Below are positions 31,100-56,172 of a stretch of 64,000 bases of DNA, piece by piece. Positions within the stretch are counted from its first letter, which is position 1. Every line of letters starts with the position of its first letter. Where the stretch lies: assembly GCA_032158295.1 (NCBI GenBank), contig CM063260.1:3109501-3173500 (forward strand), written 5' to 3'. The notes under the pieces were generated by a model. That model did no database searches. It was not told the DNA's origin and was given only the letters and a program-made list of their open reading frames with translations. Position numbers and translations under genes: made by a program. Origin of the DNA: Pycnopodia helianthoides. Lineage: Eukaryota > Echinodermata > Asteroidea > Forcipulatida > Asteriidae.

Positions 31100-31279
31100 T
31101 TACTGTGTGAGGGAGCTGAGTGGAGACTGAGAGGTGCAATGGTTATTTAAAATATTTTGCTTTACTGTGTTCTTTTGTAGGTGAGGGAGTTGAGTGTAGA
31201 CTGAGAAGTTCAATGGTTATTTTATTTGTATTATTTTCCAAAAAAAACCATAATCTGTGTTCTTTTGTAGGTGAGGGAG
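31100..31279 (+). repeat. Triplicated exon 10 acceptor region
   Basis: GTGAGGGAG.TGA follows a T-rich tract at 31107, 31181 and 31271. Copies 2 and 3 both have TGTGTTCTTTTGTAG before it. Only the third leads into the open exon; the others read VRELSGD-stop and VRELSVD-stop. Confidence 0.85.
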
Positions 31280-31390
31280 CTGACGGAGTCTCTGGATACT
31301 GAGAAGAAACGTCGTTCATCCTACGAGGGGACCATCATCAAGCTTAAGGCAGTAGTGGATAGGAACAAAAAACTCATCAGTAATTTAGAG
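31271..31390 (+). CDS. Coiled-coil gene, exon 10
   Basis: 40 codons, phase 0 to 0, from VRELTESLDTEKKRRSSYEG to NKKLISNLE. Acceptor TTCTTTTGTAG, donor GTGAGT. Both ends are embedded in tandem duplications (31100-31279 and 31378-31655). Confidence 0.92.
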
Positions 31391-31655
31391 GTGAGTGCAT
31401 GATATTTGAGGTTATCTTTTCGTGAGTGCATGATATTTGAGGGTGTCTTTTCAAACTCATCAGTAATTTAGAGGTGAGTGCATTGATATTTGAGGTTATC
31501 TTTTCAATCAGTAATTTAGAGGTGAGTGCATGATATTTGAGGTTATCTTTTCGTGAGTGCATGATATTTGAGGTTATCTTTTCAATCAGTAATTTAGAGG
31601 TGAGTGCATGATATTTGAGGTTATCTTTTCGTGAGTGCATGATATTTGAGGGTGT
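31378..31655 (+). repeat. Exon 10 donor region in four tandem copies
   Basis: CAGTAATTTAGAG followed by donor GTGAGTGCA occurs with GT at 31391, 31474, 31522 and 31600. Extra GTGAGTGCATGATATTTGAG units lie between the copies. Use of a downstream donor reads VSA-stop. Confidence 0.9.
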
Positions 31656-32002
31656 CGTTTGAAACTTTGCAATTTAGCAAGCAAACATTTTTCTCTCTCT
31701 GACCAATACACTCTTGCTTTGCCGAGATGTAGAACAAAAAGAGCCATTCCAACAACTTTATTCCACGTACTGCATCTCTTTGGAACTCCTTGCCTGGTGC
31801 ATGTTTCCCTCCATCCTACAAGCTAGACTGTTTGAAGTGGAATATCAATTCCTATCTTCAGATTCCCTGAGTTATTTTCATCTTATTAATGTTTTTTTCT
31901 TGTAGCCCCTTACCAAGAGTGACTTTTAGCCTTGTTTGGGGTGAACTTGAATTTTAAAAAACAAACAATTAAACAAACAATTTTTTATTTTTTTTATTTC
32001 AG

Positions 32003-32116
32003 GATGAGAAGCAATCATTGTCTGAGAACAAAGCAGCTCTTGAGATGCGAAACGGTTTCCTAGAGAAGGATCTACAACAGCTAAGAGAACAAGAGAAGAG
32101 CTTCCTTAATCAAACG
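32003..32116 (+). CDS. Coiled-coil gene, exon 11
   Basis: 38 codons, DEKQSLSENKAALEMRNGFL through EKSFLNQT, phase 0 to 0. Acceptor TTTTTATTTCAG, donor GTACGA. Confidence 0.92.
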
Positions 32117-32224
32117 GTACGATCTCTTTAGCTTCAAACGTGTGGTATTTTTTGTTCGGAAAACTTTGTTGTATGCTGTAATTCTGTTTTCAGCTTTTAC
32201 CTGCTTTATTACTCGCAATATTCA

Positions 32225-32465
32225 GGGATATTTCACAGAGGCCATTGCCCCTGGCCATTGCCTTGGTGCCCCTTGAAATGTTCCAGTTTCAGGCCTGATA
32301 CTTCACTGAGGCAATGGAGACAATTGCTCCCGTTGCCCCTGGTCATTGCCTTGCAGTCCCCTCCAAATGATCCCAATAGAAATTTACAATTTAGTCATAG
32401 AGGTGCCCTTTACAAAGGAGAAAAACGCCTTGGTGCCCTTGCCCTTTTAAGAATGAAGCATGGGG
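32225..32465. mobile_element. Decayed family G element
   Basis: CAGGCCTGATACTTCAC, GCCCCTTGAAATG, and CTTGGTGCCCTTGCCC echo the interior of family G (8944, 18796), with rearrangement and no clear TIRs. Confidence 0.45.
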
Positions 32466-32951
32466 CTGGTATTCAAGCCCAAACTAGAAACAGCTTCATA
32501 GCAGCGGTCACATGTGCTCATTTGCATAACTCTTTTTATAACAAGTTATTAAGAGGTTAAACCAGCCCCTTTCCTCTACCAACCCCCTCCCCCCTCTCGT
32601 TTGTTTCCTTCTTCTTTGTTTTTCCCTTACTTTTTCTGTGTGCTTTCTGCCTCTCTCTCTCTCTCTCTTTTCATCTCTTTCCACTTGACTGCTTCTGTTA
32701 CACCAGTATACCTGTTTATGTGTGTTGTGTTGTGTTGTCATTAGCCTTCAAGAAAGACTCTGCTACTAGGGTCAAATTGTCAGGCCATTAACTTTCCTTT
32801 TTTTTTTAGGTTGAGAATTTTATGCAATTTGTTGATCAGGAAAAGCTTCTAATTTTTTAATTGATTCGAAGTAGTTGCACCTTTAAAGGAATTCAACATT
32901 GATAGTATTTAGAAATGTCCCTTTAATTTCTATGATTTGTTTTTTCTCCAG

Positions 32952-33179
32952 ACTTCCTTAAAGTCTGAGCAGACGCTCATCGAGCGCCAAGAGTCTGAGA
33001 TCAACATCCTGAGAGAGGAGAATCAGAGCCAAGCTCTGAAGCTGCAGAAGACGATGGTCTCCTTAGAGACTGAGAAGAAGAAATGTCTGGAGCTGGGTCA
33101 GAAGCTGACCTCCACCGAGGAGAAATGGGAGAAGATCGTACAACGGTACAAACACAACGAGAAAGATCTGACCAATAAG
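32952..33179 (+). CDS. Coiled-coil gene, exon 12
   Basis: 76 codons, from TSLKSEQTLIERQESEINIL to KHNEKDLTNK, phase 0 to 0. Acceptor TTTTTTCTCCAG, donor GTACAT. Base composition is more GC-rich than the introns. The 3' end plus donor is repeated downstream. Confidence 0.92.
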
Positions 33180-33465
33180 GTACATGATTAGGGCTGATTG
33201 GCTCATTGGTTTCTTCCATGCCTACCAACGAGAAAGATCTGACCAATAAGGTTCATGATTAGGGCTGATTGGCTCATTGGTTTCTTCCATGCCTACCAAC
33301 GAGAAAGATCTGACCAATAAGGTATATGATTAGGACTGATTGGCTCATTGGGTTCTTCCATGCCTATGGGAGCAGATCGTACAACGGTGCAAACACAACA
33401 AGAAAGATCTGACCAATAAGGTACATGATTAGGACTAATTGGCTCATTGGGTTCTTCCATGCCTC
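33155..33465 (+). repeat. Exon 12 3' end plus donor in four tandem copies
   Basis: GAAAGATCTGACCAATAAG followed by GT occurs with the GT at 33180, 33251, 33322 and 33421. Spacing is 71, 71 and 99 bp. The fourth copy contains more exon sequence (ATGGGAGCAGATCGTACAAC). Reading past the first donor gives VHD-stop. Confidence 0.92.
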
Positions 33466-33697
33466 TCACCCTTGTGCCTAGTTTCAAATCCCAGACCAGG
33501 GCCCTTGCATGTGGACTGGGTTTTCAGTCCCTACCTGGGTCCCTTGCGTGGGTTTTCCCTCCCACATCTAAAAACTGAGATTATTTCAGCATCTTCTCAA
33601 AACAGGTCTTCAGGCCTACTGATCACAGTGCTAGTCACGTTTGAGGGTCCCTTGGTTTCATGACCAGAAAAATATAACTACAGTTATAATAAATTTG

Positions 33698-33890
33698 TAG
33701 TATGGGGGTTGAACAAAGAAAAATTGACTAGAGCGGGATTTGAACCAACGACCTCCGGATTAACGTACCGGCGCTCTACCAACTCAGGGCGCTCTACCAA
33801 CTGAGTTGGTAGAGCGCCGGTACGTTAATCCGGAGGTCGTTGGTTCAAATCCCGCTCTAGTCAATTTTTCTTTGTTCAACCCCCATACTA
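33698..33890. repeat. Perfect 89-90 bp inverted repeat of a tRNA-like SINE head
   Basis: The left arm ends at 33787 and the right arm runs 33801-33889/90, with a 13-bp spacer. The right arm contains CTGAGTTGGTAGAGCGCCGG and GGTTCAAATCC, a tRNA-like box A/box B pair. Arms match base for base in my reading, so the transcript would fold into a long hairpin. Confidence 0.9.
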
Positions 33891-34024
33891 TTTGAAATTC
33901 ACCCAGTCAGTTTCCCTTGTGGTTTATTACTTGACATAATAAATTTGTGAATGATTTTTTGTTTTTTACAAAGTGTCATTTTGTATAAAACTTGAATCAA
34001 TTTGCTGAAATTCTTCCTCTCCAG

Positions 34025-34117
34025 TTGGACAAGCTAACGAGGGATCTTGAGTTATCCAAATCAGAACTTGACGCAAATCATCAGCGAATCAGCAGAATCC
34101 ACCAAGAGCATGACAAG
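34025..34117 (+). CDS. Coiled-coil gene, exon 13
   Basis: 31 codons, LDKLTRDLELSKSELDANHQ through HQEHDK, phase 0 to 0. Acceptor CTTCCTCTCCAG, donor GTAGGA. Confidence 0.92.
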
Positions 34118-34338
34118 GTAGGAATTCTGTTGTTGTTATCAAAATGGTTTCGTTAAGTTCTTAAATTGTGCTCTGAAGGCAACCAATGAAGGTGTGAATC
34201 TTGTCTTATATACTTGGTGGTATTCTACATGTTCTAGGACGCTGTATTTTCTCATCAGGTCCTGGTTGAGCCTGTTTGCAACCCCCCCCCCCCCCCCCCA
34301 TCGAACAGGATATTTGCAAAACAGAGAAACCGCCATCA

Positions 34339-34440
34339 TAGGGCTAGATAACTCAGTTGGTAGAGGGCCGGCATGCTTCCGGAGGTCGCAAGTTTAAATC
34401 CCATTCTAGTCACTTTGTCTTTGTTCAGCCCAAACCTCAA
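34339..34440 (+). mobile_element. tRNA-like SINE head fragment
   Basis: GGGCTAGATAACTCAGTTGG, then CCGGAGGTCGCAAGTTTAAA, ending TCTAGTCAC. It is the same tRNA-like family as 33698-33890, but the anticodon arm and T-loop are degenerate, so it is not a tRNA gene. An 18-C run lies just upstream at about 34281-34299. Confidence 0.6.
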
Positions 34441-34644
34441 TATCCTTTTGGTGGACCTTTCCATGCTTAGCTGTTTTTTGTTGCTTATTCACATTAAAAA
34501 GACTGTACTCTAATTGAATAAACCTGAAGAAAAAAAGTGTGTCAAGTCGAGTCAGCAACTTTGAAAATAACACTGCATTAAATGTCAACACCAAAACTGC
34601 ACTCATTGATGCAACAACACATGTGTCAAACACCATACAAACAG

Positions 34645-34896
34645 CAACTTGAGGACACCAAAATAGAAGCACAATACCTGAAGGACGAACTTCAGCAAGA
34701 GAAAGGTCTCTCGGAGCAGGCCGACCGCCACCGTCTCACCATCAAGGAGCTCGAAGGTATCGTCGACGAACTCAAGAAGGACCGAGACGTCCTGGCGAGA
34801 GAGCTACAAGTTATGATCACCAAGGAGCAGAAACACAAGGAGTGGTTGAGATCGGCCGAGCAATCGGCCGAGGAGATTGCCAAGATGCGATCCCAG
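34645..34896 (+). CDS. Coiled-coil gene, exon 14
   Basis: 84 codons, QLEDTKIEAQYLKDELQQEK to EEIAKMRSQ, phase 0 to 0, donor GTTAGG. The acceptor (CATACAAACAG) has no pyrimidine tract. The frame stays open upstream to an ATG at 34582, so an internal transcription start here is possible. Confidence 0.85.
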
Positions 34897-35359
34897 GTTA
34901 GGATGGAAATCTTGAGCTTGCTGTTCTCCTTGAACTAGCCCTGATGTAATGATGCTTTGAATGGAATGAAGTTAACAGCATGTGTGGCACTAACTTGAAC
35001 CGATCGCTCTTGGATGCGGTTGGATTGAATGGAGCTATAGTGTGCTTAATACAATCTTACTAATTGTCTAATTATGTGACGTGTGCAACCTTAACTTTAT
35101 TCCACGACTCTGGAAATTTGTTAAAATTGAATTGAGTTACAGTGTGTCTAACACAGTCTAACAAATTGAATGATAACATTCTATTTACCACTAACTTGAT
35201 CAAATAAAGGCCTTTCGATACTAACTTGAGGTACATCTAATGCCTTCAATTACTTTTAAGTAGAACTTAAGTGTAACTTTATAACATGTTGTTTTGATCA
35301 CATCCATTTGATGCATCGCTTGTAGCACTAACGTGAGCTAACATAGGACTCCGAGCCAG

Positions 35360-35490
35360 GCTCAGTTTCACAAAGAGCCAAGATTGATCTTAAGATGTGT
35401 ATCAATCTTAATTGCTAAGCAAAGTGTGATGTTGCAATACAAATCACTATGGTGATATTGACAACTCTTTTTAATATGAATCTTAGTGCT
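35360..35490. repeat. Interspersed repeat I, fragment
   Basis: CAAGATTGATCTTAAGATGT, TGCTAAGCAAAGTGTGATG and ATGGTGATATTGACAACTC match 30900-31030 and 50785-50915. Confidence 0.6.
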
Positions 35491-35537
35491 TAATGGACCG
35501 TAGTTATTAAGCAGACAACAGTTTTGGTAATGTGATT

Positions 35538-35845
35538 ATTAATTTTATCACTGGCAGATAAAATACATTATTCAATGGACACCCACAACCCTTGTGGCGC
35601 CACCAAGGCTAGTTTGGTCATGTTGGGTGGGCTTTTCAAACCCTGTCCAGTTGGTCTTTTTGCGACCTTGCACATTATTTTCCCAGGGTTTTTATGGGGT
35701 TCCCGGTGGCAAAAGGGCAGGGCACCCTTCTTCAATAAATCAGGTGCAGTTATGTAAAACAACAGCGTCTGCACGCTGCTGCTTTTGTGCGGGAACCTCA
35801 CTTCGGTTCAGCTTCCAACCAAGTCAACACCCAAGAAATTTTTTC
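35538..35845 (+). repeat. Ngaro split direct repeat A1
   Basis: 308 bp, matching A2 at 41241-41548. TTTTATC (35543-35549) and GATAAAA (35557-35563) form a 7-bp stem with a 7-base loop close to the outer end. Confidence 0.95.
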
Positions 35846-36024
35846 TTCTTTAATTTGGATTTATACCGTCTTTTTAGACATCACCAAGTTTTACTTAAGT
35901 TCTTTAAATTGAAGTCGTGAGTTGTTACTTTAACGTAACAAGTTTCTACGAGGCCTTTTGGAGGGAGCGGGGATTACGTGTAGCCGTTCGTCGTTCCTTA
36001 TTTATTCTTCAACAAGGAGTTGTC

Positions 36025-37287
36025 ATGCCGCGCCCGGCACGGAATGTGCGCCGCCCGGCGAGATTTACACAGGCTAACCCGACCCGGGGCAGAGGACGGG
36101 GCAGGAAGAACTCCAACACGAGCGGGACTGAGAGCGGTCGTCGGGGGCCGCAGGCAGCGGGAGTCGCAGGAGCAGTTTCGGCCCAACAACAGGAGGCGCA
36201 GGATGTTGGAATTTTCAACAGCCAGGCTACCCATGCTACTGAGGAGGATCGTGGTGGATTGACGGGTGTGGATCCAGCTCCTCCTTCCAGCGGCGGTTTA
36301 AACCACCACAGTGGGCCTTCTACCAGTGGTGGGGGTATGGATAATATGTTTAATTTCCCGTCATCGTTTACTGTTAATACTGTTCCCACTTTTGATAATC
36401 CCATTCCGGATTTAGAGCTAGGTAGGCCTACCCCGATACCTTCCGTCCTTGGGTATGCCCCCTTGGGCATGCATGTAACCCAGCCGGTTAAGGAGAAAAT
36501 TTGGGCTTCCCAATATGTTGAAATGGCATTGCTCTTCCGGGACAATGCAGTCGTAGCTATGTCTGGGCCAGAGGCAGGTTCGGCGCTAACGCTCGCGGTT
36601 GAGCACGGTCAAGTTGTTTTTCGCCAGGCATCGGCGCAACAGCCTCGTAAAATTCAGTCAATTGCGCAATGGACGTCTGCGTTCCATACGTTTATGGCAA
36701 TTTATTCTGTGCGTCATCCATTGCGCTTTGGCGAATTGCTAAAATATGCAGAGACCGTGCGTACCGCAGCAGCGCAGTTTCCTGGCTTTGGCTGGCGTAG
36801 CTACGACGAACAGTTCCGTCTCCGTCAAGAGGTTTGCCCATCGCGTTCATGGGCACTGCTCGACACGGAACTTTGGGTGACTGTTGCCGCCGCGTCTAGT
36901 TTTTTCTCTTCTTCTGTGTCTATTCACCCACAGGAAAAAGTTAGTTCTAAGGGTGGTCCTGTATATTGTTCCCCTTTTAATTCGGGTAACTGTCGGTGGC
37001 CGAACTGTAAATTCCCTCATCGCTGTAGCAACTGCACACGCTTTGGGCATGGGGCAGTGACTTGTCGTGTGGGCAAAGTACGCCCCACTGATTCTGGTCC
37101 GTCTCACGACGTTGCCAGTAGGCAGAAGTTTACCCGCACAGGTGTTAGTTCAAAAGGGGTTGCTACAGCAAGGGTTGCGGATACCACTAGGCGTTGGACC
37201 AATTCAGCCGCTCATCAGAGCACGGCTCGGCCTGCTGCAGAAAAATCTGCTGCGTTGGCCAATTTTCGTTCCCCCAACGCCAATTAA
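36025..37287 (+). CDS. Ngaro ORF1, gag-like nucleocapsid protein
   Basis: 420 aa from the first ATG (MPRPARNVRRPARF). The open frame extends upstream to 35917, but only with GTG. The N-terminus is basic and Arg/Gly-rich (RGRGRGRKN), followed by a low-complexity G/S/P region and a folded middle part. Near the C-terminus is a Cys/His cluster, CRWPNCKFPHRCSNCTRFGH then TC, typical of DIRS-order gag proteins and likely to bind RNA. The last 221 bases overlap the reverse transcriptase frame (+1 relative). Confidence 0.85.
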   Translation: MPRPARNVRRPARFTQANPTRGRGRGRKNSNTSGTESGRRGPQAAGVAGAVSAQQQEAQDVGIFNSQATHATEEDRGGLTGVDPAPPSSGGLNHHSGPSTSGGGMDNMFNFPSSFTVNTVPTFDNPIPDLELGRPTPIPSVLGYAPLGMHVTQPVKEKIWASQYVEMALLFRDNAVVAMSGPEAGSALTLAVEHGQVVFRQASAQQPRKIQSIAQWTSAFHTFMAIYSVRHPLRFGELLKYAETVRTAAAQFPGFGWRSYDEQFRLRQEVCPSRSWALLDTELWVTVAAASSFFSSSVSIHPQEKVSSKGGPVYCSPFNSGNCRWPNCKFPHRCSNCTRFGHGAVTCRVGKVRPTDSGPSHDVASRQKFTRTGVSSKGVATARVADTTRRWTNSAAHQSTARPAAEKSAALANFRSPNAN

Positions 37288-38845
37288 AATTGACACTTTG
37301 CAGTCTTGGCTAAGCAGTTACCCGGACAGGCGTAGCGCTCATTTATTGGCAGATGGTTTCGCTAATGGTTTTCAATTGGGTTACACAGGGCCACGTATAA
37401 GTAGGAATTCTGGTTGCCCCAGTTCAGCTTCAGACAGGGCAGATATTGTTTTAACTAAGTTGCATAAAGAGATAGCTCTTGGTAGGATTGCGGGTCCATT
37501 CATAAATAAGCCATTTATTAACTTACAATGCTCCCCCATAGGTTTGGTTCCAAAGCATGAACCAGGCGAGTTTCGACTCATTCACAACTTGTCATTTCCG
37601 TTAGGTGGTTCCATTAATGACTTTATTGATCGGGACATGTGTACTGTGCATTACAATTCCTTTGACTCGGCGGTTGACATCGCCATGTCAACGAGCCACC
37701 ATGCCTGGCTGGCGAAGTCAGATATCAAGTCGGCATTTCGGCTTTTGCCGGTGGCTCCTTCCGATTACGAACTTCTCGGTTTTGTTTTTCAGGGTTTGTA
37801 TTATTTTGATAAATGTTTGCCGATGGGGTGTAGTATTTCTTGTTCGTTGTTTGAAACCTTCAGTACATTTCTTGAGTTTCAGGTAAAACAGCTTGCGGGG
37901 GTACATAGTATTACTCACTATTTAGATGATTTTTTATTTGTGGGTGGCACCGCAACTGAGTGTGCGGCATTGTTGCAAATTTTTCGTACTGTCTGTGCAC
38001 GGTTAGGGGTTCCAATCGCTGAAGAGAAGACAGTAGGGCCGGCACAAAACATAACTTATTTGGGCCTTGAAATTGACTCGGTGAGGCAGCTTGTTCGTGT
38101 GCCATCACCAAAACTGCACGTGCTACGGCAGCAAATCCTAACAGCATTAGGCAAGCGCAAGATGTCCCTTAAGGAAATTCAGTCGCTAGTCGGGTCGCTC
38201 AACTTTGTATGCAGGGCAGTTGCTCCTGGGCGGGCGTTTATGCGGCGATTAATTGCCCTGTCAAGGGGCTTGCGTAAGCCCCATCATAAAGTTCGTTTGT
38301 CTGCAGGGGCGAAGCTTGATTTATCAATGTGGCTTGAGTTTTTGGAACATTTTAATGGCGTGTCGCCAGTAAATCGCAGTGGTTGGCAGTCCAACGACAG
38401 CATCGAGCTGTTCACTGACGCCTCGGCCAGCATCGGTTTTGGTGGTTTCTTTGAAGGGAAGTGGTTTCAAGGGCGCTGGGCACCAGACTTATTGGCTCAG
38501 ACGCCGTCGATCGCGTTCCTAGAATTTTATCCATTAGTTGTGGCAGTGTATTGCTGGGGCGATCTTCTAGCCAATCAGAAGGTTAGTTTCCGCTGCGACA
38601 ACAGTGCTGTGGTAGCCATAATTAACAAGCAGTCTTCGCGATGTGACATGATCATGCAATTAGTGCGTTTATTTGTGTGCAAGTGTCTTAAACACAACAT
38701 TTTGTTTCGGGCAGTGCATGTCCCAGGCGTTCATAACGATGTTGCCGATTCCCTTTCCCGCTTTCAGGTCCTCCGATTTCGAGCCGTAGCCCCGCAAGCG
38801 GATTTACGCATGACACCTCTGCCCAGTCTGCCCACGATGTGGTAG
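37067..38845 (+). CDS. Ngaro ORF2, reverse transcriptase and RNase H
   Basis: The open frame has about 592 codons. Reverse transcriptase motifs in order: GLVPKHEPGEFRLIHNLSFP, KSDIKSAFRLLPV, LPMGCSISCSLFE and the catalytic YLDD at 37919-37930, then YLGLEID. RNase H follows with LFTDAS, FLEFYPL, RCDNSAVV and HNDVADSLSR. It copies element RNA into DNA and removes the template. There is no ATG before the RT core (the first is within the RT near 37638), so expression probably needs a frameshift from ORF1 in the 221-base overlap. The stop at 38843-38845 lies inside the recombinase frame. Confidence 0.93.
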   Translation: MWAKYAPLILVRLTTLPVGRSLPAQVLVQKGLLQQGLRIPLGVGPIQPLIRARLGLLQKNLLRWPIFVPPTPIKIDTLQSWLSSYPDRRSAHLLADGFANGFQLGYTGPRISRNSGCPSSASDRADIVLTKLHKEIALGRIAGPFINKPFINLQCSPIGLVPKHEPGEFRLIHNLSFPLGGSINDFIDRDMCTVHYNSFDSAVDIAMSTSHHAWLAKSDIKSAFRLLPVAPSDYELLGFVFQGLYYFDKCLPMGCSISCSLFETFSTFLEFQVKQLAGVHSITHYLDDFLFVGGTATECAALLQIFRTVCARLGVPIAEEKTVGPAQNITYLGLEIDSVRQLVRVPSPKLHVLRQQILTALGKRKMSLKEIQSLVGSLNFVCRAVAPGRAFMRRLIALSRGLRKPHHKVRLSAGAKLDLSMWLEFLEHFNGVSPVNRSGWQSNDSIELFTDASASIGFGGFFEGKWFQGRWAPDLLAQTPSIAFLEFYPLVVAVYCWGDLLANQKVSFRCDNSAVVAIINKQSSRCDMIMQLVRLFVCKCLKHNILFRAVHVPGVHNDVADSLSRFQVLRFRAVAPQADLRMTPLPSLPTMW

Positions 38846-39783
38846 GAGGTGAGATTACTCGTTTATTAACTCAAGCCCTAGCACCAAACACTCATAGAAC
38901 TTATCAGGTGGGCTGGAATGCTTTTTGTGCCTTCCAACGTCGGCGCGGGCTAGTGGGGATAATTATTCCGGCATCGCCACAAGATATTCATCGTTTTGTT
39001 GCGGGGCTATCGTTACAGCAATTGGCTCCAAGTACCATTGCCACTTATGTGTCGGGTGTGGGTTTTTATCACAAAGTTCGGGGTTGGCCTGATCCTACTA
39101 GGAATTACGTGGTGGAAAAATTGTTGGAGGGTTGTCGTAGAGGCCGTTTGCCATGGGCAGACAAGCGTTTACCCATCACACTGCCTATACTGTCTCATTT
39201 ACTGCATGCCTTGCCTAGCGTTTGTAGTTCGCTATTTGAGGTGGCTCTTTTCAAGGCGGTGTTCTTAAGTGCATTTTTCGGCTTTATGCGCATTGGGGAA
39301 TTCGCGGCAAAATCTAGTAGTTGCTTGCAACAATCTTTGCTCATGTTTTCGGATGTCGAATTTTGTAATTCGAGTGAGCTCTCAGCTTCAGTTGTCTTCT
39401 CTTTTCGCCATTCTAAGAATAATATGTCAGGCCCTCCACAACTAATCCGTTTGGTTCGTTCTGCTAACCCGGTAATTTGTCCTGTAAAGGCCTTGTGCGA
39501 CTTGGTTGCCATTCGCCCACTTTTGCAGGGCAGTTTTTTCTGTCATTATGATGGGAGCCCGCTCACACAGTTTCAGTTTAATGCTGTTCTCAAGAAAGTG
39601 CTTGTTTTTTCCGGTATGGGTGATGCCCATATCAGGGCACACTCATTCCGTATTGGGGCAGCCACAACTGCAGCGGCGGCGGGTATCCCCTTAACTGACA
39701 TTCAGGCAATGGGCCGCTGGCGTTCTGATGCGGTGCTGAGGTACATTAGACCAGGGGCGACTTGTGTGCTCCCAGGGGTTTAG
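38737..39783 (+). CDS. Ngaro ORF3, tyrosine recombinase
   Basis: The frame is open from 38737 (after TAA at 38734) to TAG at 39781-39783; the recognisable protein starts around VGGEITRLLTQALAPNTHR. The N-terminal SAM-like helical part has APSTIATYVSGVGFYH. The catalytic part has FFGFMRIGEF (first Arg), AHSFRIGAAT (H-x-x-R), MGRW and LRYIRP (Tyr nucleophile). It would integrate the circular DNA intermediate. No ATG occurs before the catalytic half, so it is likely made as an ORF2 fusion by a -1 shift in the 38737-38845 overlap, or from a non-AUG start. Confidence 0.9.
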   Translation, partial: RCCRFPFPLSGPPISSRSPASGFTHDTSAQSAHDVVGGEITRLLTQALAPNTHRTYQVGWNAFCAFQRRRGLVGIIIPASPQDIHRFVAGLSLQQLAPSTIATYVSGVGFYHKVRGWPDPTRNYVVEKLLEGCRRGRLPWADKRLPITLPILSHLLHALPSVCSSLFEVALFKAVFLSAFFGFMRIGEFAAKSSSCLQQSLLMFSDVEFCNSSELSASVVFSFRHSKNNMSGPPQLIRLVRSANPVICPVKALCDLVAIRPLLQGSFFCHYDGSPLTQFQFNAVLKKVLVFSGMGDAHIRAHSFRIGAATTAAAAGIPLTDIQAMGRWRSDAVLRYIRPGATCVLPGV

Positions 39784-39928
39784 TTTTTTCCTGCAGTGCC
39801 CGCGTTTTCAAATAATATATCCCAGATCGGTGGTGCGGTTCACAAATTCACCGTTTCAAATTGCTTTAGTTGTGTTGTAACCTGTCCCTCATTATTATTT
39901 GCCTAACTGCGTTCGTTTGACTGTTTAC

Positions 39929-40459
39929 ATGGCAGGTGATGTATGGATTATAGGTGACTCCATCGTTCGCAGGGCTTCACAGCATTTTGACAGTGGGCCG
40001 GTAGTGCGGTGGAACGGGTGTGGTGGGGCTCGGTACTCCGATATTCATCAACTTTTAGATAAGCTACATGCCAGGTGGCTATCCCCAAGTTTGTTAATTG
40101 TACATGTGGGGAATAATGATTTAGTTGATACTGATGCTTTCAGTTTGCGTCAGCGTATTGCATTGTTAATGCAAGAGTGTCGGAACCGTTTACCGAATGC
40201 GGCTCTGGTATGGTCTAACTTGCTTCCCAGAGCTTGCTATTTTGGGGCATTTGACCCCAAAAGGATGGAGATGAAACGGCGTTCAATAAATAGGTATGCC
40301 ACTTCATTTAGTCGCCGCATTGGGGCAACTGTGCTGCAACACCCCCAATTTATCTGGTCCTGCTTCGCATTATATCGTTTTGATGGGATACATCTTTCTC
40401 AGGTTGGGAATGAATTATTTCGAGGTAATTTACGGGCCTGCATTAATTTACATTCATAG
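39929..40459 (+). CDS. Ngaro ORF4, SGNH hydrolase-like protein
   Basis: 176 aa from ATG 39929 (MAGDVWIIGDS). Block I is GDS (IIGDSIVRRA), block III is VGNND (IVHVGNNDLVD) and block V is DGIHLSQVGNELF with the Asp-x-x-His pair, so the Ser-Asp-His triad is present. SGNH esterases cleave ester bonds in lipids or sugars. Many animal Ngaro elements carry such an ORF; its role in transposition is unknown. A 145-bp gap separates it from ORF3. The ATG has T at -3 and G at +4, a modest context. Confidence 0.88.
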   Translation: MAGDVWIIGDSIVRRASQHFDSGPVVRWNGCGGARYSDIHQLLDKLHARWLSPSLLIVHVGNNDLVDTDAFSLRQRIALLMQECRNRLPNAALVWSNLLPRACYFGAFDPKRMEMKRRSINRYATSFSRRIGATVLQHPQFIWSCFALYRFDGIHLSQVGNELFRGNLRACINLHS

Positions 40460-40476
40460 ACCTGTTGAGCCCCCCT

Positions 40477-40481
40477 AAAAA

Positions 40482-40552
<71 letters not shown>
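40477..40552. repeat. A-run and TA microsatellite in the Ngaro element
   Basis: About 24 A followed by roughly 25 TA units between the SGNH ORF and B1. It is prone to length polymorphism or assembly error. Confidence 0.9.
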
Positions 40553-40579
40553 CTGGCTGTCCATCCCTGTGGGGCACGC

Positions 40580-41242
40580 TGCGCGTGTTTGGCATTTTCT
40601 GATAGGGAAGTGGACTGCCACTGCCTGCGGGGGGTCGGATAATTGATAAACTTATAAGTGGTAATCAATATTATTAATGAGTTAAGGTATGTTTAACTTA
40701 ACACTGTAGCACCTCTCATTTCCGAGGGGCCTATATTTTTGTACATTCCAATCGCGTGTACAAGCGATGGAATAATCTTTATGCCTTTCAGGCCCTTACC
40801 TTAATGTTGATATAACTCTTGCTTGCACCTACTATTTCAAGTGGGGCTATAGCAGTACTGTAATGCAACTGCGTGTACAAGCGGTGCAATCACATAGAGC
40901 ATTGATGCCTAATCGACATGTAAGAAGTAACCCCCTCTTGTCTGTGGTTTGTGGGCAAGTGTGTTTGCCCACATTTGTTTATGGCAGGTTGCCAAGTAAT
41001 GTTATGGCAGGTTGCCAAGTAATGTTATGGCAGGTTGCCAAGTAATCCGGGCCCGGTATTCATGTATGTCTGTTGGGGGTTACTTTCAAATAAAATGTGT
41101 TATTACATAGTTACTGGTTTTGCCCGATTGGTAATTAACCAATGCGGTGTGACATGGTTGAATAAACATAGCACTTGAAGCTGATTCCAATAAGCCAACT
41201 CAATGTGTACTGTTGTGGTTATTTGTGTTCTCAGAGAATAAT
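40580..41242 (+). repeat. Ngaro split direct repeat B1
   Basis: 663 bp, matching B2. It contains three units of CAGGTTGCCAAGTAATG at 40985-41047, and AATAAA signals near 41091 and 41160 that could end element transcripts. Its 3' end overlaps the first bases of A2. Confidence 0.93.
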
Positions 41243-41548
41243 TAATTTTATCACTGGCAGATAAAATACATTATTCAATGGACACCCACAACCCTTGTGG
41301 CGCCACCAAGGCTAGTTTGGTCATGTTGGGTGGGCTTTTCAAACCCTGTCCAGTTGGTCTTTTTGCGACCTTGCACATTATTTTCCCAGGGTTTTTATGG
41401 GGTTCCCGGTGGCAAAAGGGCAGGGCACCCTTCTTCAATAAATCAGGTGCAGTTATGTAAAACAACAGCGTCTGCACGCTGCTGCTTTTGTGCGGGAACC
41501 TCACTTCGGTTCAGCTTCCAACCAAGTCAACACCCAAGAAATTTTTTC
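41241..41548 (+). repeat. Ngaro split direct repeat A2
   Basis: 308 bp, apparently identical to A1, including the TTTTATC/GATAAAA stem (41246-41266) next to the B1 junction. The 42 bp after it (41549-41590, CCGCCTCCGCCCCCTC...) match neither A nor B. Confidence 0.95.
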
Positions 41549-41590
41549 CCGCCTCCGCCCCCTCAATACCTCCAGTAGTTGAGGTTTTTC

Positions 41591-42253
41591 TGCGCCTGTT
41601 TGGCATTTTCTGATAGGGAAGTGGACTGCCACTGCCTGCGGGGGGTCGGATAATTGATAAACTTATAAGTGGTAATCAATATTATTAATGAGTTAAGGTA
41701 TGTTTAACTTAACACTGTAGCACCTCTCATTTCCGAGGGGCCTATATTTTTGTACATTCCAATCGCGTGTACAAGCGATGGAATAATCTTTATGCCTTTC
41801 AGGCCCTTACCTTAATGTTGATATAACTCTTGCTTGCACCTACTATTTCAAGTGGGGCTATAGCAGTACTGTAATGCAACTGCGTGTACAAGCGGTGCAA
41901 TCACATAGAGCATTGATGCCTAATCGACATGTAAGAAGTAACCCCCTCTTGTCTGTGGTTTGTGGGCAAGTGTGTTTGCCCACATTTGTTTATGGCAGGT
42001 TGCCAAGTAATGTTATGGCAGGTTGCCAAGTAATGTTATGGCAGGTTGCCAAGTAATCCGGGCCCGGTATTCATGTATGTCTGTTGGGGGTTACTTTCAA
42101 ATAAAATGTGTTATTACATAGTTACTGGTTTTGCCCGATTGGTAATTAACCAATGCGGTGTGACATGGTTGAATAAACATAGCACTTGAAGCTGATTCCA
42201 ATAAGCCAACTCAATGTGTACTGTTGTGGTTATTTGTGTTCTCAGAGAATAAT
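41591..42253 (+). repeat. Ngaro split direct repeat B2 (right end)
   Basis: 663 bp, apparently identical to B1, ending CAGAGAATAAT before flanking AAAGCATTTATTTGG. It holds the AATAAA signals of the terminal copy. Confidence 0.95.
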
Positions 42254-43731: not shown

Positions 43732-45609
43732 ATGGCTGAGTCATCGGTGGGAGATGAGGCGTTGGATGTCACCGCAGATGAGCAGACAGTTACAGGAGGA
43801 GAGACGACAACAGAAGACCATCAGAAGATCACTGGCAAAGTTTCTGGTGAGGAGGAGATCATTCCGCTTGAATCAGAGGCGATAAAAGCTGCCCCTGAGG
43901 ACGAAGAACGCAGTGAAGAGAAAGATCCACCTTGTGAGGAAAAAAACGTCTCGGAAGAAGAAGAGGCAGTGAAAGCGGGTTCGGAGAGAGAGTCCGTCTC
44001 AGAAGACCGGAGTGACTTGAAGGTAGAGGGTGTCTCGGGAGAGGAGGTTGGTTTTGAAGAAAAGGGGGATGCTGTCGGTGAGGGTGCCTCAAAGGAGCTG
44101 AGTATCTCAGGAGGACATTCTCAACAGGAAGAGATCTCTTCAACGGGAGAGAAACCAGGCAGTGGCGTAGAGTCCATTTTGAAGGACCAGTCCGATACCA
44201 AACAACATCTTGTTTTGGGCGGAGATTCTGAATCGGAGGAAAATATTAATTTGGGAGAAAATACAGAGAGTGAGGAAAAGTCACTTGGGAAGGACGAAGC
44301 TGATGCAGAAGAAAAAGCCGAAACAGCAGGAAAAAATTTGGTGGAAGAAAAAGCCGAAACAGCAGGAAAACAATCAGCAGTAGAAAAGTCACTTTCTGGA
44401 AAAGATTCACAATTGGAGGGAAAAAGCATCTCTGGGGAAGAGGTTGACTCAGGGGAGAAGCATAGTCTGAGTGAAAAGTCTGACTCCGAAGAAAATATTA
44501 ATGTGGAGGAAAATCTTGAAGTAGGAGAGCAGCTTGTTGTCAAAGATAAATCTATATCAGATAAAACTGCATTGGTTGAAGAATTTGATGCAAAAGGAGG
44601 TTCTCTTTCAGAGGAAAAATCCTTAGTAGAAGAAAATCAACAATCTGAGAAAAGTTCCTGCTTGGAAGAAGAAAAGTCTTTATCAGGAGACGAGACAGAT
44701 TTGAAGGAGAAATCTGCCTCAGGGGAACAAGCTGGCAGTGAGGGAGAATCTGAGAAGGAGGAATTCAGTTTGGATGAGGAGGTTGGTTCAGAGCAAAAGT
44801 TAGTGTCAGGAGGAGACGTTTGTAATTTGGAGGCAGAGAAGGAAGAAAGACCTTCTTCAGAAGGAGGACTTATTCCCGGAGAAGAGCAGAGTGTAGAAGT
44901 AAGTCCTGTTTCGGATGAAGAGGTCACCACTAAAGAACCCATTTTAGAAGGAAATTCCAGTCTTGAGGAGAAAAATTACTTTGAAGAAACGGGAGTTAAA
45001 GAGAAAAAGACTTTTGCAGAAGATAAGTCTGTTCTCGAAGAAACTCCAGTATCTGGTAGTAATTTCAGTTTTGTAGAAAAAGCTGTTCAGGAGGAAGAAT
45101 TGAATGTTGTGAGTGAGACTGTATTGGAAGATCAGGCCGACCTTGAAGCAAACATCCACTTAACTAAACTTTCATCTGACTCCGATAAAAAGCATTTTCT
45201 CAAAGACTCAAGAGTGGATTGGGAACCACGTGAACAACTTTTGGAGAAGAAAATAGATCTTGAAGAAAACGTGAATTCAGAAGATTCGTTGACGGAAGAT
45301 GTTAAAGATTTAGAGGGTAGTCCTGTTTCAAAAGGAGTGACAGACTCGAAAGAGAAAATATTAATTGCAGAGAAAACTGTTTTGAAGGACCGCCAAGTTG
45401 TGAAGGCAGAAACTAGCTCAGGAGCTCGGACTGTGCTAGATAAGAAGTCCGACTCTGGTGGGACTAGTCCTAGGGAAGGGTGTATCCTCTTAGAAGGAAG
45501 AATTCGTTCGGAGGAAAGAAGTATTGCTGACTTGCAGGTTTCTTTGGAGGCAAAGATTGCATCTGCAGAGAAGACACTTCTTGAGAAAATCATTACGTTG
45601 GAATCACAG
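43732..45609 (+). CDS. Acidic repeat ORF: candidate alternative first exon of the coiled-coil gene
   Basis: An ATG in good context (A at -3, G at +4) opens a 656-codon frame. It is almost entirely E/S/K/D/G, built from loose 10-13 residue units such as SLSGDETDLKEKS and SISGEEVDSGEKHS. Around residues 600-626 it turns into a heptad stretch (SLEAKIASAEKTLLEKIITL). At 45609 ESQ is followed by GT (GTTTGC); splicing there to exon 15 is phase 0 to phase 0 and continues the coiled coil as ESQ-LESSVLKQSNL. Exon 14 cannot splice into this exon at the AG at 43730 without meeting TGA in the third codon, so it is best read as a first exon from an internal promoter. Unspliced, the frame stops at 45702 and AATAAA follows at 45789, so a stand-alone nested gene is the alternative. 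It is probably an intrinsically disordered, highly charged region. Confidence 0.65.
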
Positions 45610-46114
45610 GTTTGCAGCAGCCGAATTGAGTTTCGTTTTACTTTGGAAGATGCTAAATTCAAAATATTAGGCGGGCTTTGCTCAGAAAACAGTCCGTTTT
45701 GAAATACAACTAATTTAAAAAGTAACAAAACATATAATGTGCACACACCCACCCTAAGAGTGCTCAAGGTGCCTACAGGAAAAAAAACAATAAAACAATA
45801 ATAAAAAATAATGAAATACAAGAAATGACAATGCAGAACAATTACACAGAGTGAGCCAAAACACTAACATTACATCTTTTTAAGCTTAGAATATTGGAGA
45901 TAGTTTTAATGGTGTGTTTGCTTTATTCCTTCATACTAATTGCTATTACTGAACTTTTTCTTGTGATGTCAAACCCTTTTTTTAGCATCCAGGATTTTTC
46001 CTCGCCAGTTGTGCCAGCAGGAACAGTTTTCTGATGTGAACTATGCTTGAATCTGTACTTCCCATTTTGTCTTCATTATTAACTGGTGGATATTTTCTTC
46101 ATGGTTTATTTTAG

Positions 46115-46184
46115 TTGGAGAGCAGTGTGTTGAAGCAGAGTAACCTTGTAGAAGAACTCAGTGAAGAAAAGAGAAGGAACCAAA
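46115..46184 (+). CDS. Coiled-coil gene, exon 15
   Basis: 23 codons plus one base, LESSVLKQSNLVEELSEEKR onward. Acceptor GTTTATTTTAG, donor GTAAGT. It would join exon 14 or the acidic exon, both phase 0. Confidence 0.92.
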
Positions 46185-48114: not shown

Positions 48115-48306
48115 TTGCCATTTTGTGTAATTCTAACAATATTTTGTTGTATTTTTGTTTGATATGAAGGAATTTGCACAGAACCATTCTGTGTAATTCT
48201 AACAATATTTTATTGTACTTTTGTTATGAAGGAATCGACACAGTACCATTCTATGTAATTCTAACCATATCTTGTTGTATTTTTGAACTGAAGGAATTGG
48301 CGCAGT
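48115..48306 (+). repeat. Exon 18 acceptor region in three tandem copies (62-bp unit)
   Basis: ATGAAG or CTGAAG followed by GAAT..G.CACAG occurs with the exon-like start at 48170, 48232 and 48294, each preceded by GTAATTCTAAC.ATAT.TTG. Only the last opens into exon 18; the others read EFAQNHSV-stop and ESTQYHSM-stop. Confidence 0.9.
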
Positions 48307-48431
48307 TGAAGAAGGAGACAGGAAGGTTATCTGTGGGTCATAACAGGGCTGAGGAGAGAGTGCTGGATGAGGCCAGACTACGCGTCGATATCGAACATAG
48401 AAATAAAGTACTCGAAGAAGAAATGACCAAG
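48294..48431 (+). CDS. Coiled-coil gene, exon 18
   Basis: 46 codons, ELAQLKKETGRLSVGHNRAE to NKVLEEEMTK, phase 0 to 0. Acceptor TTTTTGAACTGAAG, donor GTAAGA. Confidence 0.92.
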
Positions 48432-51362: not shown

Positions 51363-51439
51363 AGGATTTAAACACTGACTTTGTTTTATAATAATTGTAT
51401 CATAACCTCATCATTGTTTTTTTTCTCTCTCAATCTAAG

Positions 51440-51597: not shown

Positions 51598-51639
51598 GTA
51601 TGTTCGGAACGCCATTTTCTTGCAACTTGATTTGAGTTT

Positions 51640-51850: not shown

Positions 51851-52105
51851 TTTTATAGCTCTCTTCATATTTCTCAAAATGAAAGATTGGTTCGTGGTGT
51901 TTATGCGAATGATTCAACTTTTTCCAAAATTGCAAATCTGTAGTCGCAATCAGTCAAGCAAAGTGATTCCAGTATGAAATAGCTCATTATTCTTGCAAAC
52001 ACTTTGAGCCCCTATAGTGTCATTCTTTGAAATTGAAATCTCCTTAGTAATCAACAACTTTTCCTGATAAATGTTTGATGTTTCCATCCTTCCTGATGTC
52101 TGCAG

Positions 52106-52271
52106 GTCTTTGCTAAACCAGCAGCTGGAGGAGTTGAAGCAACAACTGACGTCGTCGTTGGAACGAGAAGAGAGAGTCCGCCACGAGAACACCGACACTA
52201 AACACAGACTGCTGGAAATTCAAAACAAACTCTATGCAACTGAAGATAAATCTAAATCAGTGGAGGACATG
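52106..52271 (+). CDS. Coiled-coil gene, exon 22
   Basis: It completes Lys and encodes SLLNQQLEELKQQLTSSLER to KSKSVEDM, ending phase 0. Acceptor CCTGATGTCTGCAG, donor GTAAGG. Confidence 0.92.
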
Positions 52272-52433
52272 GTAAGGGGAATATCGTCATATTGGCTTCT
52301 TTTTTCTTCTTCAGTAAAAACAAATCTAAAATGGCTTCTGAAGAGGAGAAAGGATTAAGAAATCTATCAGACCATCAGTTCATCGTTCAAATGTTGTACA
52401 ACTTCTTTGAGCATTATTCCTGGGGTGACCATA

Positions 52434-52741
52434 GAGTTACATAATAGAACTAGAGGGCGCTTTAAAACCATGGGACCTGGACCATCAAGACGCATTTCTG
52501 AAGACATCTTTACTCATGCTTGCCCCCCCCCTCCTCCCCCAATGAAAATGTCATTTCATTTCATTTATTCTGGTTGTGAAGGACTCTCAGAAAGCTAAAT
52601 CAATCACTACACTAGGCTAAGAACCCCAGTGGAGAGAAGACACTGAAGGAAGTTTCAGTTTTAGCCCCCCCCCCCACCATGGGGGGGGGGGCTAAAACTA
52701 TGAATAATTAGAGTGCTCCCTTTAGTTCTATTATGTAACTC
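52434..52741. mobile_element. TIR element with C/G-run core
   Basis: GAGTTACATAATAGAACTA at the left pairs with TAGTTCTATTATGTAACTC at the right. The interior has C runs and G runs (52665-52692) that are themselves complementary. One copy only. Confidence 0.75.
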
Positions 52742-52796
52742 TTTGGAAGTGACCTACAATCTTATTATTATTATTTTTTACTTCCTTGATTGACAG

Positions 52797-52969
52797 CATT
52801 CATTAGCGGAGATGGGTAAGAAATCTCTGCTAGACCAAGTGTCCTCCTTGCAGCTTGAGGTTCAACGTCTACAGACTGAGCTTGCGCAGACGACGCAACG
52901 ACTGGATGCACAGATCAGTAAATATGAGGAGCACAAGACTCATCATAAAAGCAAGCTGCAGCAAGCCAG
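52797..52969 (+). CDS. Coiled-coil gene, exon 23
   Basis: 57 codons plus two bases, HSLAEMGKKSLLDQVSSLQL to KSKLQQA. Acceptor CTTGATTGACAG, donor GTAGAG. Confidence 0.92.
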
Positions 52970-53009
52970 GTAGAGGAGCATTTCATTCAATTCCTGACAT
53001 TTAACCCAT

Positions 53010-53330
53010 ATAATAAATAATAATAATAAATCATTCTTGTAAAGCGCATTCCGTCCATGGTAGGACCCCAATGCGCTGTACAGGCATGAAACTTATTTAA
53101 AGAAACTTAAACAATTCTTAAAACTACACATTATTATACAAAAACGCATGACAAAAATTTAACAAGACGAAGTGAAACAACTGGCAGGAGAAAATGTTTT
53201 AAAAATCACATGCGAAGCAGATGGGTTTTAAGTGAACTCTTGAACAGATCTAGTGAGTTCGCATTTCTAACATGTGTTGGAAGCCGGTTCCAGAGTTCGG
53301 GAGCTCTGTATGTAACTGCCTTACTATGGG
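53010..53330. mobile_element. Probable retroelement fragment
   Basis: An AAT microsatellite is followed by TTGTAAAGCGCATTCCGTCC and TGCGCTGTACAGGCATGAAA, then GTTGGAAGCCGGTTCCAGAG. The style matches SINE/LINE tails; a single copy here prevents naming it. Confidence 0.4.
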
Positions 53331-53564
53331 ATTTCCCGTAGAGCACGCAAACACTGTCGGCGTCTAACTACGGGAAAACCCGTAGATATAATATTATAAT
53401 ATAAAAATTAAATTGGGCCCTGTTGCTTTGTCTCAACCTGTTTGATTGATGAGTTTTTTATAACATGTTAGTGAACTTAGTCAATAAAAATGAATGAGAC
53501 AAAGAAACATGATTGTTGGTTCACTATTCTGAAGGGAATTTGTAGAGTGGATTGCGTTGTGTCG

Positions 53565-53915
53565 TGACTGAGCGGTTAAGAGCACCGGACTCAAGCTCTG
53601 GTGTTTTTGATCTTCAGAGAGTGGGAATTTTTTAGTTCTGGTCGTGGCACTTGGGTCCTTTAGCAAGATACTTTACCATCATTGCTTTGTCTTCGGATGG
53701 GACATTAAGCCATAGGTCCCATGTACTAGGATTGGTAGTGCATGTTAAAAGAACACAAAACACTTATCGTGGAAGAGTAGGGGTTAACCCTGGTGTTTCT
53801 GGTTCACGTAGCAAGCACCCTTGTTGACAGGTGTCCTCGGGCTTGCGAGCTACAGTGATTAAGTACACTTATGAGACATCCTTGGTTTCATTACCAGAAA
53901 TATTATTATAATAAT
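53565..53915 (+). mobile_element. tRNA-derived SINE, copy 4
   Basis: GACTGAGCGGTTAAGAGCAC is a box A-like head of the Leu/Ser tRNA type. CTCAAGCTCTGGTGTTTTTG and TTAGCAAGATACTTTACCAT link it to 19215-19460. It ends in an AAT microsatellite. Confidence 0.65.
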
Positions 53916-53964
53916 AATAACATCATGTGCACTTTCTCTCCGTGAATACTTGTATCTATTGCAG

Positions 53965-54129
53965 AGACATCTTCTCTCGGCATAAGACTGTACTGGCCGA
54001 CAGTCTCATGAAACTACAGCAGGATCTAAACACGACCAACGCCGAGCTGCAGAAAGAGCAGAATAACAGAGAGAACTTACAGAAGAAACATGACAACCTC
54101 CTGGATGAACACCGCAAGCTGCTTGCTAT
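53965..54129 (+). CDS. Coiled-coil gene, exon 24
   Basis: It completes Arg and encodes DIFSRHKTVLADSLMKLQQD to DEHRKLLA plus two bases. Acceptor ATCTATTGCAG, donor GTGAGT. Confidence 0.92.
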
Positions 54130-54857
54130 GTGAGTAAATCCCCCCTCCCCCCAGTCTTACCCTCCCTAACAGTGTCAGTGCTATGAACAGAAACAAAAAC
54201 GTGTTTTTAAAAATATGAACACAGTTCCTTTTTTTTTTTTTTTTTTTTTTTTGCTTTTTGTAATGAAGAAAAAGGAATGTTATAGTTTGTTTTTTTGCAT
54301 GTTGCATTTCATTTCATTTAAACTCTTTTTTGTAATCGAACTAAGGGACCCACAAAAGCATTTAGCACTGTGACCCGTAGGCCTGAAGGTACCTGTGTGG
54401 AGAGAGATTATGAAGAATTGTCAGTTTGAGATGTAGGAGGAAAACCCCCGATGGGGGAAAACCCACGCAATCAGGTAGGGACTGAAAACCCCAATCTACA
54501 TACAAGGCTCCGGGTCTGAGGTGGGATATGAACCCTATCCACAGAGGAGAAAGGCAGGGCAAGATACTACTAAAGCTAACTTCATCCCCCAACCCTAATT
54601 TTATTCTTCCTGATTGACGCTGATTGCAACACACATTTCCACACACGTGCCGTATGCGTATGAAAGAGAGCCTCATTATTTATGCAGATGACCCTTCGGT
54701 GGCCTTTCAGTAGACAACCGCAAACAGCCACCTCCAAAGCCAGATTAGAAACCAGTATATCAACGGCTGTCTGCGCTGAAACGCATGAGGGCGATATTCA
54801 AAAATCTATCCAGGGTAATTTGCAAGCCTGGACCATGCCTGGATATTCAAACGCTTT
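54130..54857. other. Intron 24, first part
   Basis: A 27-T run (about 54226-54253) and sequence related to 13600-13720 and 33480-33560 (ACCCACGCAATCAGGTAGGG in inverse), an unnamed interspersed repeat. No exon was found. Confidence 0.45.
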
Positions 54858-55027
54858 CATGCAAATATGTAATCGGTTTTTCACTATTTTCTCGTGACCC
54901 AGATGGCCGATCGATCTCAAACTTCTACAGGGTTTGTCAGTTTATGTATATGGTGGATTACATAAAGTGCTTACTCTGCCAGCAACTGTTTTTGTTAGCA
55001 GAAACCAATTCTGTAATGTTCCTTTAA
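54858..55027 (+). mobile_element. Family A TIR element, right half only
   Basis: It matches the last ~170 bp of 6206-6601, ending GTAATGTTCCTTTAA. The end lies 7 bp before exon 25 and supplies half of that exon's pyrimidine tract. Confidence 0.85.
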
Positions 55028-55034
55028 CTTCTAG

Positions 55035-55215
55035 GCATTCAGACTCGGAGGAAGCTGTGAGGGATCAGAACCGGAACGTCAACACCATGGACTACAGAGT
55101 CAAGTACCTGGAGAAGGAGAATGGGGTGCTGCAAGATCGCATCGACACCCTGAGCAGACAGAGAGTGGCTATGGAGAAACTCATCAGGGAGTACAGGCTG
55201 GAGAAACAGAAAATG
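55035..55215 (+). CDS. Coiled-coil gene, exon 25
   Basis: It completes Met and encodes HSDSEEAVRDQNRNVNTMDY to EYRLEKQKM, phase 0 at the end. Acceptor CTTTAACTTCTAG, donor GTGAGT. It holds the last strong coil (VKYLEKENGVLQDRIDTL). Confidence 0.92.
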
Positions 55216-55360
55216 GTGAGTGGCAAGGAAGTAGTTTGAGGTTTGTGAAACTGGCTGTGGGTACTGCTATTGAAACTTTTTTGGTTTAATGGTGAGTGCC
55301 ACTATGAGAGTGTGTGTGAAGGGGGGGGGGGGGGGTGTATCACTCTATTTGTGTTTCCAG

Positions 55361-55387
55361 CTAGAAAAGTACAAGAAGAGTGAGTGA
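55361..55387 (+). CDS. Candidate alternative terminal exon (exon 25b)
   Basis: It follows acceptor GTGTTTCCAG. Joined to exon 25 in phase 0 it reads LEKYKKSE and stop at 55385-55387, with AATAAA at 55389-55394 directly after. It continues the basic helix of exon 25 (EKQKM-LEKYKK). A GTGAGT at 55380 would end it earlier but puts exon 26 out of frame. Confidence 0.45.
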   Translation, partial: LEKYKKSE

Positions 55388-56110
55388 AAATAAACGGGTT
55401 GTGAATGTTGAAACTATGTGACTCATCATTAGCGGCATAGCCCAGATTATTTCACTAGGAGTGGGAAGGGGGGCACAGGGGGAGCATTGTTTTCCAGTGG
55501 GGGTCCCAGGGGCCATGTTTTTCTTGTTTGTATCTGGATTTTTTCATGGGGGGCACCTGGGGGGCATGTGACCCCCATGCCCCTCGTGGCTAAGCCGCTG
55601 GAGTCACCATAGAGTAGAGATGGGAGAGATAGAAGATGGTGAGAGCGAGTGGTTGATGATTCTTTGGACACTTTCAGGAAGTGTTTCAGTTTGAAGTTTG
55701 TAGACTGGTTTCTGTTAAGATTAAAACCTAGTAAAGTTAAGGAAACAGCAAAAGGTAAGAGTGAAATTATTGTGTTTGCGACAAACTCGTGACAGTGAAG
55801 TGACAGTTGGATAGGTGGGTTGTTGGGAACTTGTAAAGTAAATATATCATAGTTTTTTTAGAATTAATAAATGTACAAGTCTGCCTAATTGTCTGTGTTT
55901 AATTTGCTGGTTAGTTTGGTTGTTACCTTGATAGCATGTTTCAAGCAGCCTGCAGTATGGAATGAACTTTTTTATAACACATCTTTAATAATGCTTTATA
56001 CATGCATGTTTATGTTTTATTATGTTGCTACTTTTTTTCCTTTTTGCTTTCATGTGGCACTTTCTGCACCCTTATTTTTAACCCATCTTTTGCTGCTTGG
56101 TCCTTGACTC
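55388..56110. other. Intron 25, middle part; nothing recognised
   Basis: A G run (about 55319-55335) precedes it. G-rich patches around 55470-55590 but no repeat family or exon. Confidence 0.4.
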
Positions 56111-56111
56111 T

Positions 56112-56171
56112 GTCTGGGTATCCGTCTGGGTGTCCGTCTGGGTGTCCGCCTGGGTGTTTGTCCTGGGTGTA
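56112..56171 (+). repeat. 12-bp minisatellite ending in the exon 26 acceptor
   Basis: Five units of the GTCTGGGTGTCC type at 56112, 56124, 56136, 56148 and 56160; the last reads GTCCTGGGTGTA and its A is the A of the acceptor AG. Confidence 0.9.
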
Positions 56172-56172
56172 G

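Follow-up and report, generated by a model that had tools for sequence, protein, structure and literature searches.

How does a single gene come to carry tandem copies of its own splice sites at several exon edges, and what would such copies mean for its splicing? The question is raised by a 64,000-nucleotide stretch of the sea star Pycnopodia helianthoides (the window; contig CM063260.1, here C18:3109501-3173500 of a 479-Mb genome), in which a first-pass annotation, made from the sequence without database searches, had noticed a coiled-coil gene with short tandem duplications across its exon-intron boundaries. We confirmed that tandem copies including exon bases occur at four boundaries: the acceptor and the donor of exon 10, the donor of exon 12 and the acceptor of exon 18. 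As judged from its predicted protein, the gene (9441-57752, plus strand, as are all features of the gene described below) is CCDC30-like. It matches Pfam DUF4686 (PF15742) with an E value of 4.2e-37 and 128.6 bits, well above the curated cut-off of 31.3. Among 17 homologues, the best protein matches were to Asterias amurensis (95%), A. rubens (90%), and Patiria and Acanthaster (81%), taking the best row for each, and two Strongylocentrotus rows carry the name coiled-coil domain-containing protein 30. Exon edges were obtained by aligning the A. amurensis isoforms P0001 and P0003 to the window with our own spliced protein-to-DNA aligner, which placed 25 exons. The first exon (MSRPRPLNGILT) found no placement by spliced alignment of these two isoforms, which differ from each other in the use of two exons, one of 33 nt (17143-17175) and one of 252 nt (34645-34896).

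Exon 10 (31271-31390; 120 nt, phase 0-0) is duplicated at both ends. Upstream, a copy of positions -16 to +13 of the acceptor (score 27) lies at 31165-31219 (right end approximate) and provides a decoy, TAG/GTGAGGGAG (the slash marks the junction), whose exon copy begins at 31181. It equals the real acceptor over 16 bases through the AG and has an acceptor score of 5.1, compared with 7.0 for the real site; all donor and acceptor scores given here rest on splice-site matrices entered by hand. A third, degraded copy at 31101-31160 (approximate ends) is identical to the 31181 copy at 45 of 51 positions and has lost its AG. Position 31107 within it, one of ten junctions proposed by the first-pass annotation, is therefore not a usable acceptor; the remaining nine proved exact. 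Downstream, a nested array of seven GTGAGTGCAT donor units occupies 31391-31661 (by Tandem Repeats Finder (TRF), 31391-31651, and by donor scores), with units at 31391, 31422, 31474, 31522, 31553, 31600 and 31631. Some 15-21 exon bases, counted by eye, are present at the real donor and at the copies 31474, 31522 and 31600, all of which have the same donor score of 7.7, while the other three units are preceded by TTTTC and score about 0. Four of the seven units are identical across 31 nt. Directly downstream of this array lies an interspersed repeat (31698-31800) with at least 41 further matches in the genome.

The donor of exon 12 (32952-33179; 228 nt) is present in four copies, which together with the end of the exon span 33155-33466 (right end approximate). 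TRF reports three 71-bp units at 33155-33366, and the fourth copy, which includes about 50 exon bases by eye, was recognized by alignment. The real donor GT at 33180 scores 1.7, and the decoys at 33251, 33322 and 33421 score -2.5, 1.6 and 1.7, respectively. At exon 18 (48294-48431; 138 nt) it is the acceptor that occurs three times, at 48118-48307 (right end approximate; TRF 48118-48297, 62-bp unit, 2.8 copies), and both decoys, at 48170 (score 2.1) and 48232 (1.7), outscore the real site at 48294 (-0.2). The first-pass annotation had also suggested that the acceptor of exon 26 (56173-56294) ends a minisatellite. A minisatellite with a 12-bp unit (56112-56170) does adjoin this exon, but it stops 2 bases short of 56173 and the boundary itself is not copied.

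The identities within the arrays exceed chance, and the copies are duplications. Exon 12 units are identical at 65-70 of 70-71 positions (93-99%; for example 70/71 and 67/70) and exon 18 units at 50-55 of 62 (81-89%; for example 55/62), and these unequal identities fit separate events. That the copies were expanded or falsely created during assembly is highly improbable. Tandem arrays are prone to assembly error, and the four exon 10 donor units without a single difference over 31 nt are what such an error might produce, but the units at exons 12 and 18 diverge by substitutions, which makes them a poor fit to reads duplicated by an assembler. As DNA queries against the genome, the exon 12 and exon 18 arrays returned only self-matches, and a query covering 31000-31800 matched elsewhere only within 31698-31800, outside the arrays, in a search that scored only the best candidates and skipped very common words. 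With no match to the arrays elsewhere in these searches, there is no support for splice sites being carried by a dispersed repeat family.

Are the exon edges of this gene copied more often than the introns between them? For each edge or intron point, the surrounding 60 bases were compared with the sequence up to 500 bases away, alignments had to include 8 or more bases on either side of the point, and the point was counted as copied if its best match scored 24 or more. By this measure, 4 of 50 exon edges have a spanning copy (one of the 50, at 57752, is the stop-codon end and not a splice site), as against 4.93% of 6171 intron points in the same gene (binomial P = 0.23). Two further edges of the window, 47131 (score 20) and 48579 (score 19), lie just under the threshold. 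When the 14 duplication loci were placed at random, with the retroelement at 35400-42100 masked and the two ends of exon 10 merged into one locus, 2.3 boundary crossings were expected and 3 were seen (P = 0.41). Across 16 combinations of threshold and clustering, the random-placement P value ranged from 0.085 to 0.62. A positional excess on boundaries beyond chance is not shown, and a boundary hotspot, with boundaries duplicated more than the introns of the same gene, finds no support in this random placement.

For comparison outside the gene, we turned to dynein genes. A Pfam search for the dynein MT domain gave 19 matches at about 14 places in the genome, from which four regions were taken, chosen blind to repeats. 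One of them (D11) was excluded from the locus test since just 7 strong exons were predicted in it; a boundary match there, at 3540 (score 25), was judged false because the predicted exon is of low complexity. The controls are thus three long conserved dynein genes. D3, a ciliary dynein beta chain gene, was annotated from the A. amurensis protein P0018 by spliced alignment, and its homology model of 71 exons includes a few doubtful tiny exons, one of them of 1 nt. In D8 and D1, control exons were predicted de novo. When run on D3, the predictor agreed with the homology model at 40 starts and 44 ends of 49. For the window it called 16 strong exons out of the 25, with the start exact in 14 and the end exact in 14; because it finds only part of the window exons, and misses exon 18, it may undercount duplicated boundaries.

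Intron points lie in local copies at rates of 6.9%, 5.1% and 2.3% in the three usable dynein regions. Short tandem duplications occur in the introns of all three regions, and one of them has reached an exon edge with the same structure as in the CCDC30-like gene. At an exon of the dynein beta chain gene (L011:91-520), an 80-bp unit repeated 2.8 times includes 17 exon bases and places a decoy acceptor at D3:20207, 80 bp upstream of the real acceptor at D3:20287 (L011:287); both sites score 7.3. Duplication of a boundary is thus not private to the CCDC30-like gene. Spanning copies were found at 1 of 136 boundaries in D3, and at 0 of 104 and 0 of 34 in the two regions annotated de novo. Crossings seen and expected were 1 and 4.7 in D3, 0 and 3.4 in D8, and 0 and 0.5 in D1 (threshold 24, gap 150). 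Overall, control edges fall far under the intron rate (1/274 at 5.5%, P = 3e-6), a depletion of the kind expected from selection on exons.

The first-pass annotation had suggested that a mutational process acting locally and linked to splice sites or to transcription could generate tandem duplications at the edges of exons, and these data bear directly on that idea. In its favor are the four boundaries affected in a single gene and the frequency of 4/50 compared with 1/274 control boundaries. However, boundaries in the gene show no significant excess over random placement, those in D3, D8 and D1 stay below expectation, and copies make up 2.3-6.9% of control intron points, so that we regard such a process as very unlikely. 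The same annotation had allowed that its case would fall if boundary repeats turned out genome-wide to be as common as repeats elsewhere in introns. In the gene itself this is nearly what we observe; our figures describe sampled regions and are not a genome-wide rate.

We favor a simpler explanation. Very probably, these are short tandem duplications like those in introns of the sampled parts of the genome, some of which span exon edges by chance, with the exon-proximal site mainly used. When a duplication places a copy of an exon edge in the intron, neither the exon nor its original splice site would be disrupted, and the arrays would persist because each left an intact exon beside a working site. 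The retained working site would be the first donor copy in donor arrays and the last acceptor copy in acceptor arrays, so that the protein is unchanged provided the exon-proximal site is used. Splicing would then proceed mainly via the proximal copy, with some leakage into decoys giving early-stop transcripts. At acceptors, the exon's own enhancers probably favor the proximal copy. Proximal-site choice, low-level leakage and neutrality are what we infer from this arrangement.

Several comparisons weigh against chance placement as the whole account. At the loosest threshold, 5 of 50 edges are copied and the random-placement P value drops to 0.085. Edges of the gene are copied more often than control edges (4/50 compared with 1/274, Fisher P = 0.002), also when the homology-annotated control alone is used (1/136, P = 0.019). 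At the control rate of 1/274, four or more copied edges out of 50 have a P value of 3.6e-5, and if the rate is raised to its upper 95% bound (2.0%) the P value is 0.018. The contrast is weaker when counted by loci (3/14 compared with 1/29, P = 0.09), and all gene-versus-control comparisons are post hoc, since the CCDC30-like gene was picked for its boundaries. They hint at something gene-specific, for example a weaker splice-site constraint.

Could the decoys instead have a function? Under one such explanation, they act as competing or poison sites that divert transcripts to stop-containing forms, and nonsense-mediated decay then tunes the output of the gene. The scores leave room for this, as several decoys score as high as the real site or higher: at the exon 10 donor, three decoys match the real site at 7.7, and both exon 18 decoys outscore the real acceptor. 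In addition, every decoy position that was scored runs into a stop 4-9 codons from the junction, in agreement with the first-pass annotation, which had put the stops within about ten codons. However, near stops are usual in this gene. Read-through into the intron meets an in-frame stop within 10 codons at 13 of 24 donors, and 18 of 24 acceptors have a stop within 20 codons upstream. The donor decoys of one array, moreover, share one stop and so amount to few independent tests. Early stops thus lend the poison-site explanation weak support, and a special design is not needed to account for them, 13 of 24 donors being alike. Protein comparison also gives no sign of decoy use: the Asterias isoforms P0001, P0002 and P0003 have no decoy sequence inserted at the four boundaries, a comparison limited by the fact that the duplications are not established in Asterias and that stop-containing forms would be absent from protein listings. 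In P0002, a single substitution puts V in place of D at the residue that directly follows exon 10. On balance, we consider regulation through poison sites unlikely.

The decoy at 31181 raises a further possibility. Recursive splice sites, in which an AG is followed directly by GT, can permit an intron to be removed in two steps. Were TAG/GTGAGGGAG to act as such a ratchet, exon 9 would first be joined to the decoy, regenerating a donor, CAAAGA/GTGAGG, and the 90-nt segment 31181-31270 would then be removed to reach the real exon 10. In the sequence, GTGAGG is present at 31181, the 90-nt segment ends at the real exon 10 acceptor, and the regenerated exon 9 donor would score 1.8, near the 1.7 of the real donor of exon 12. 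Of the introns placed in the gene, only one is longer than the 8.7-kb intron that precedes exon 10. The dynein decoy at D3:20207 likewise sits at AG/GT (CAG/GTTGAGG), while the exon 18 copies begin with GAAT and have no GT. A ratchet decoy would do no harm, since the donor would be formed by the first bases of the exon itself. We think it quite unlikely that the 31181 decoy works in this way; if it did, recursive splice sites could readily arise wherever the boundaries of AG/GT exons are duplicated.

Chance duplication with mainly proximal splicing, the explanation that we prefer, has consequences of its own. Splice-site decoys would arise for free, given that about 5% of the gene's intron points are copied and that copies reaching an exon edge can be of full strength. 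With four edges affected in this way, the gene offers a natural test of how the spliceosome chooses among near-identical neighboring sites.

Several other features of the window were recorded along the way. The intron between 34896 and 46115 holds a retroelement at 35535-42057, with an RVT_1 match, a phage-integrase match just under the cut-off and a GDSL hydrolase match, which we take to be a tyrosine-recombinase element of the Ngaro/DIRS-like kind. Its split direct repeats (35535/41238 and 40579/41590) show no differences across 300 nt, which suggests that the insertion is recent. That large intron also contains an acidic open frame of 656 codons with an ATG start (43732-45699), for which there was no Pfam match at an E value of 0.001; the gene finder ends this frame at 45609 and connects it, in phase, with the exon at 46115, and the CCDC30-like gene may use the frame as an alternative first exon. 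An intronic transfer RNA (tRNA) match at 34342-34412 (Rfam, 32.6 bits for a cut-off of 29) represents a tRNA gene or a tRNA-derived repeat. Toward the ends of the window lie an open frame encoding C-type lectin and PAN domains (1178-1936) and a satellite array of about 25 copies of a 69-bp unit (62248-63999), which reaches the window end.

The first-pass annotation knew of no named description of such a cluster. For this kind of feature there are descriptions (PMC6627357, PMC2812944, PMC4974935); a cluster of four duplicated boundaries in one gene is not described among the matches listed in our literature searches. Because the layout is known from human and plant genes and its frequency lies within random placement, the discovery is a modest one. 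In human F7, intron 7 contains a variable number of highly similar 37-bp repeats starting at the donor of the exon, and splicing normally uses only the donor lying furthest upstream (PMC6627357). When the upstream donor is mutated, downstream cryptic donors become active, which may or may not belong to the repeats (PMC6627357). The donor arrays of exons 10 and 12 resemble this arrangement in having tandem units that begin in the exon and repeat its donor, and by this likeness proximal use in the donor arrays is likely. F7 has one array with measured splicing, whereas the sea star gene has four affected boundaries, two of them acceptors, identified from the DNA.

In human duplicated genes, tandem repeats across exon-intron boundaries have been catalogued and are able to alter splicing (PMC2812944). 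Those cases are copy-number differences between paralogues with transcript support, while the sea star case is one gene in one assembly. In potato, a tandem duplication crossing a boundary copied the branch site, the pyrimidine tract, the AG and the exon start, and gave rise to a new intron that has RNA-read support and whose donor was derived from exonic sequence (PMC4974935). Acceptor duplications that cross the boundary are likewise found here at exons 10 and 18, and the exon 10 and dynein decoys share with potato an AG/GT at the copy, in our case as a property of the DNA only. For the stwintrons of Lipomyces, the proposed route is a donor duplication of 4-7 nt that allows an intron to be removed in two steps (PMC7138796). 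Stwintrons and recursive sites resemble the present arrays in their duplicated donor elements or AG/GT, and the Lipomyces duplications are far shorter. The layout is already described in human and plant genes, to which the CCDC30-like gene adds a further case.

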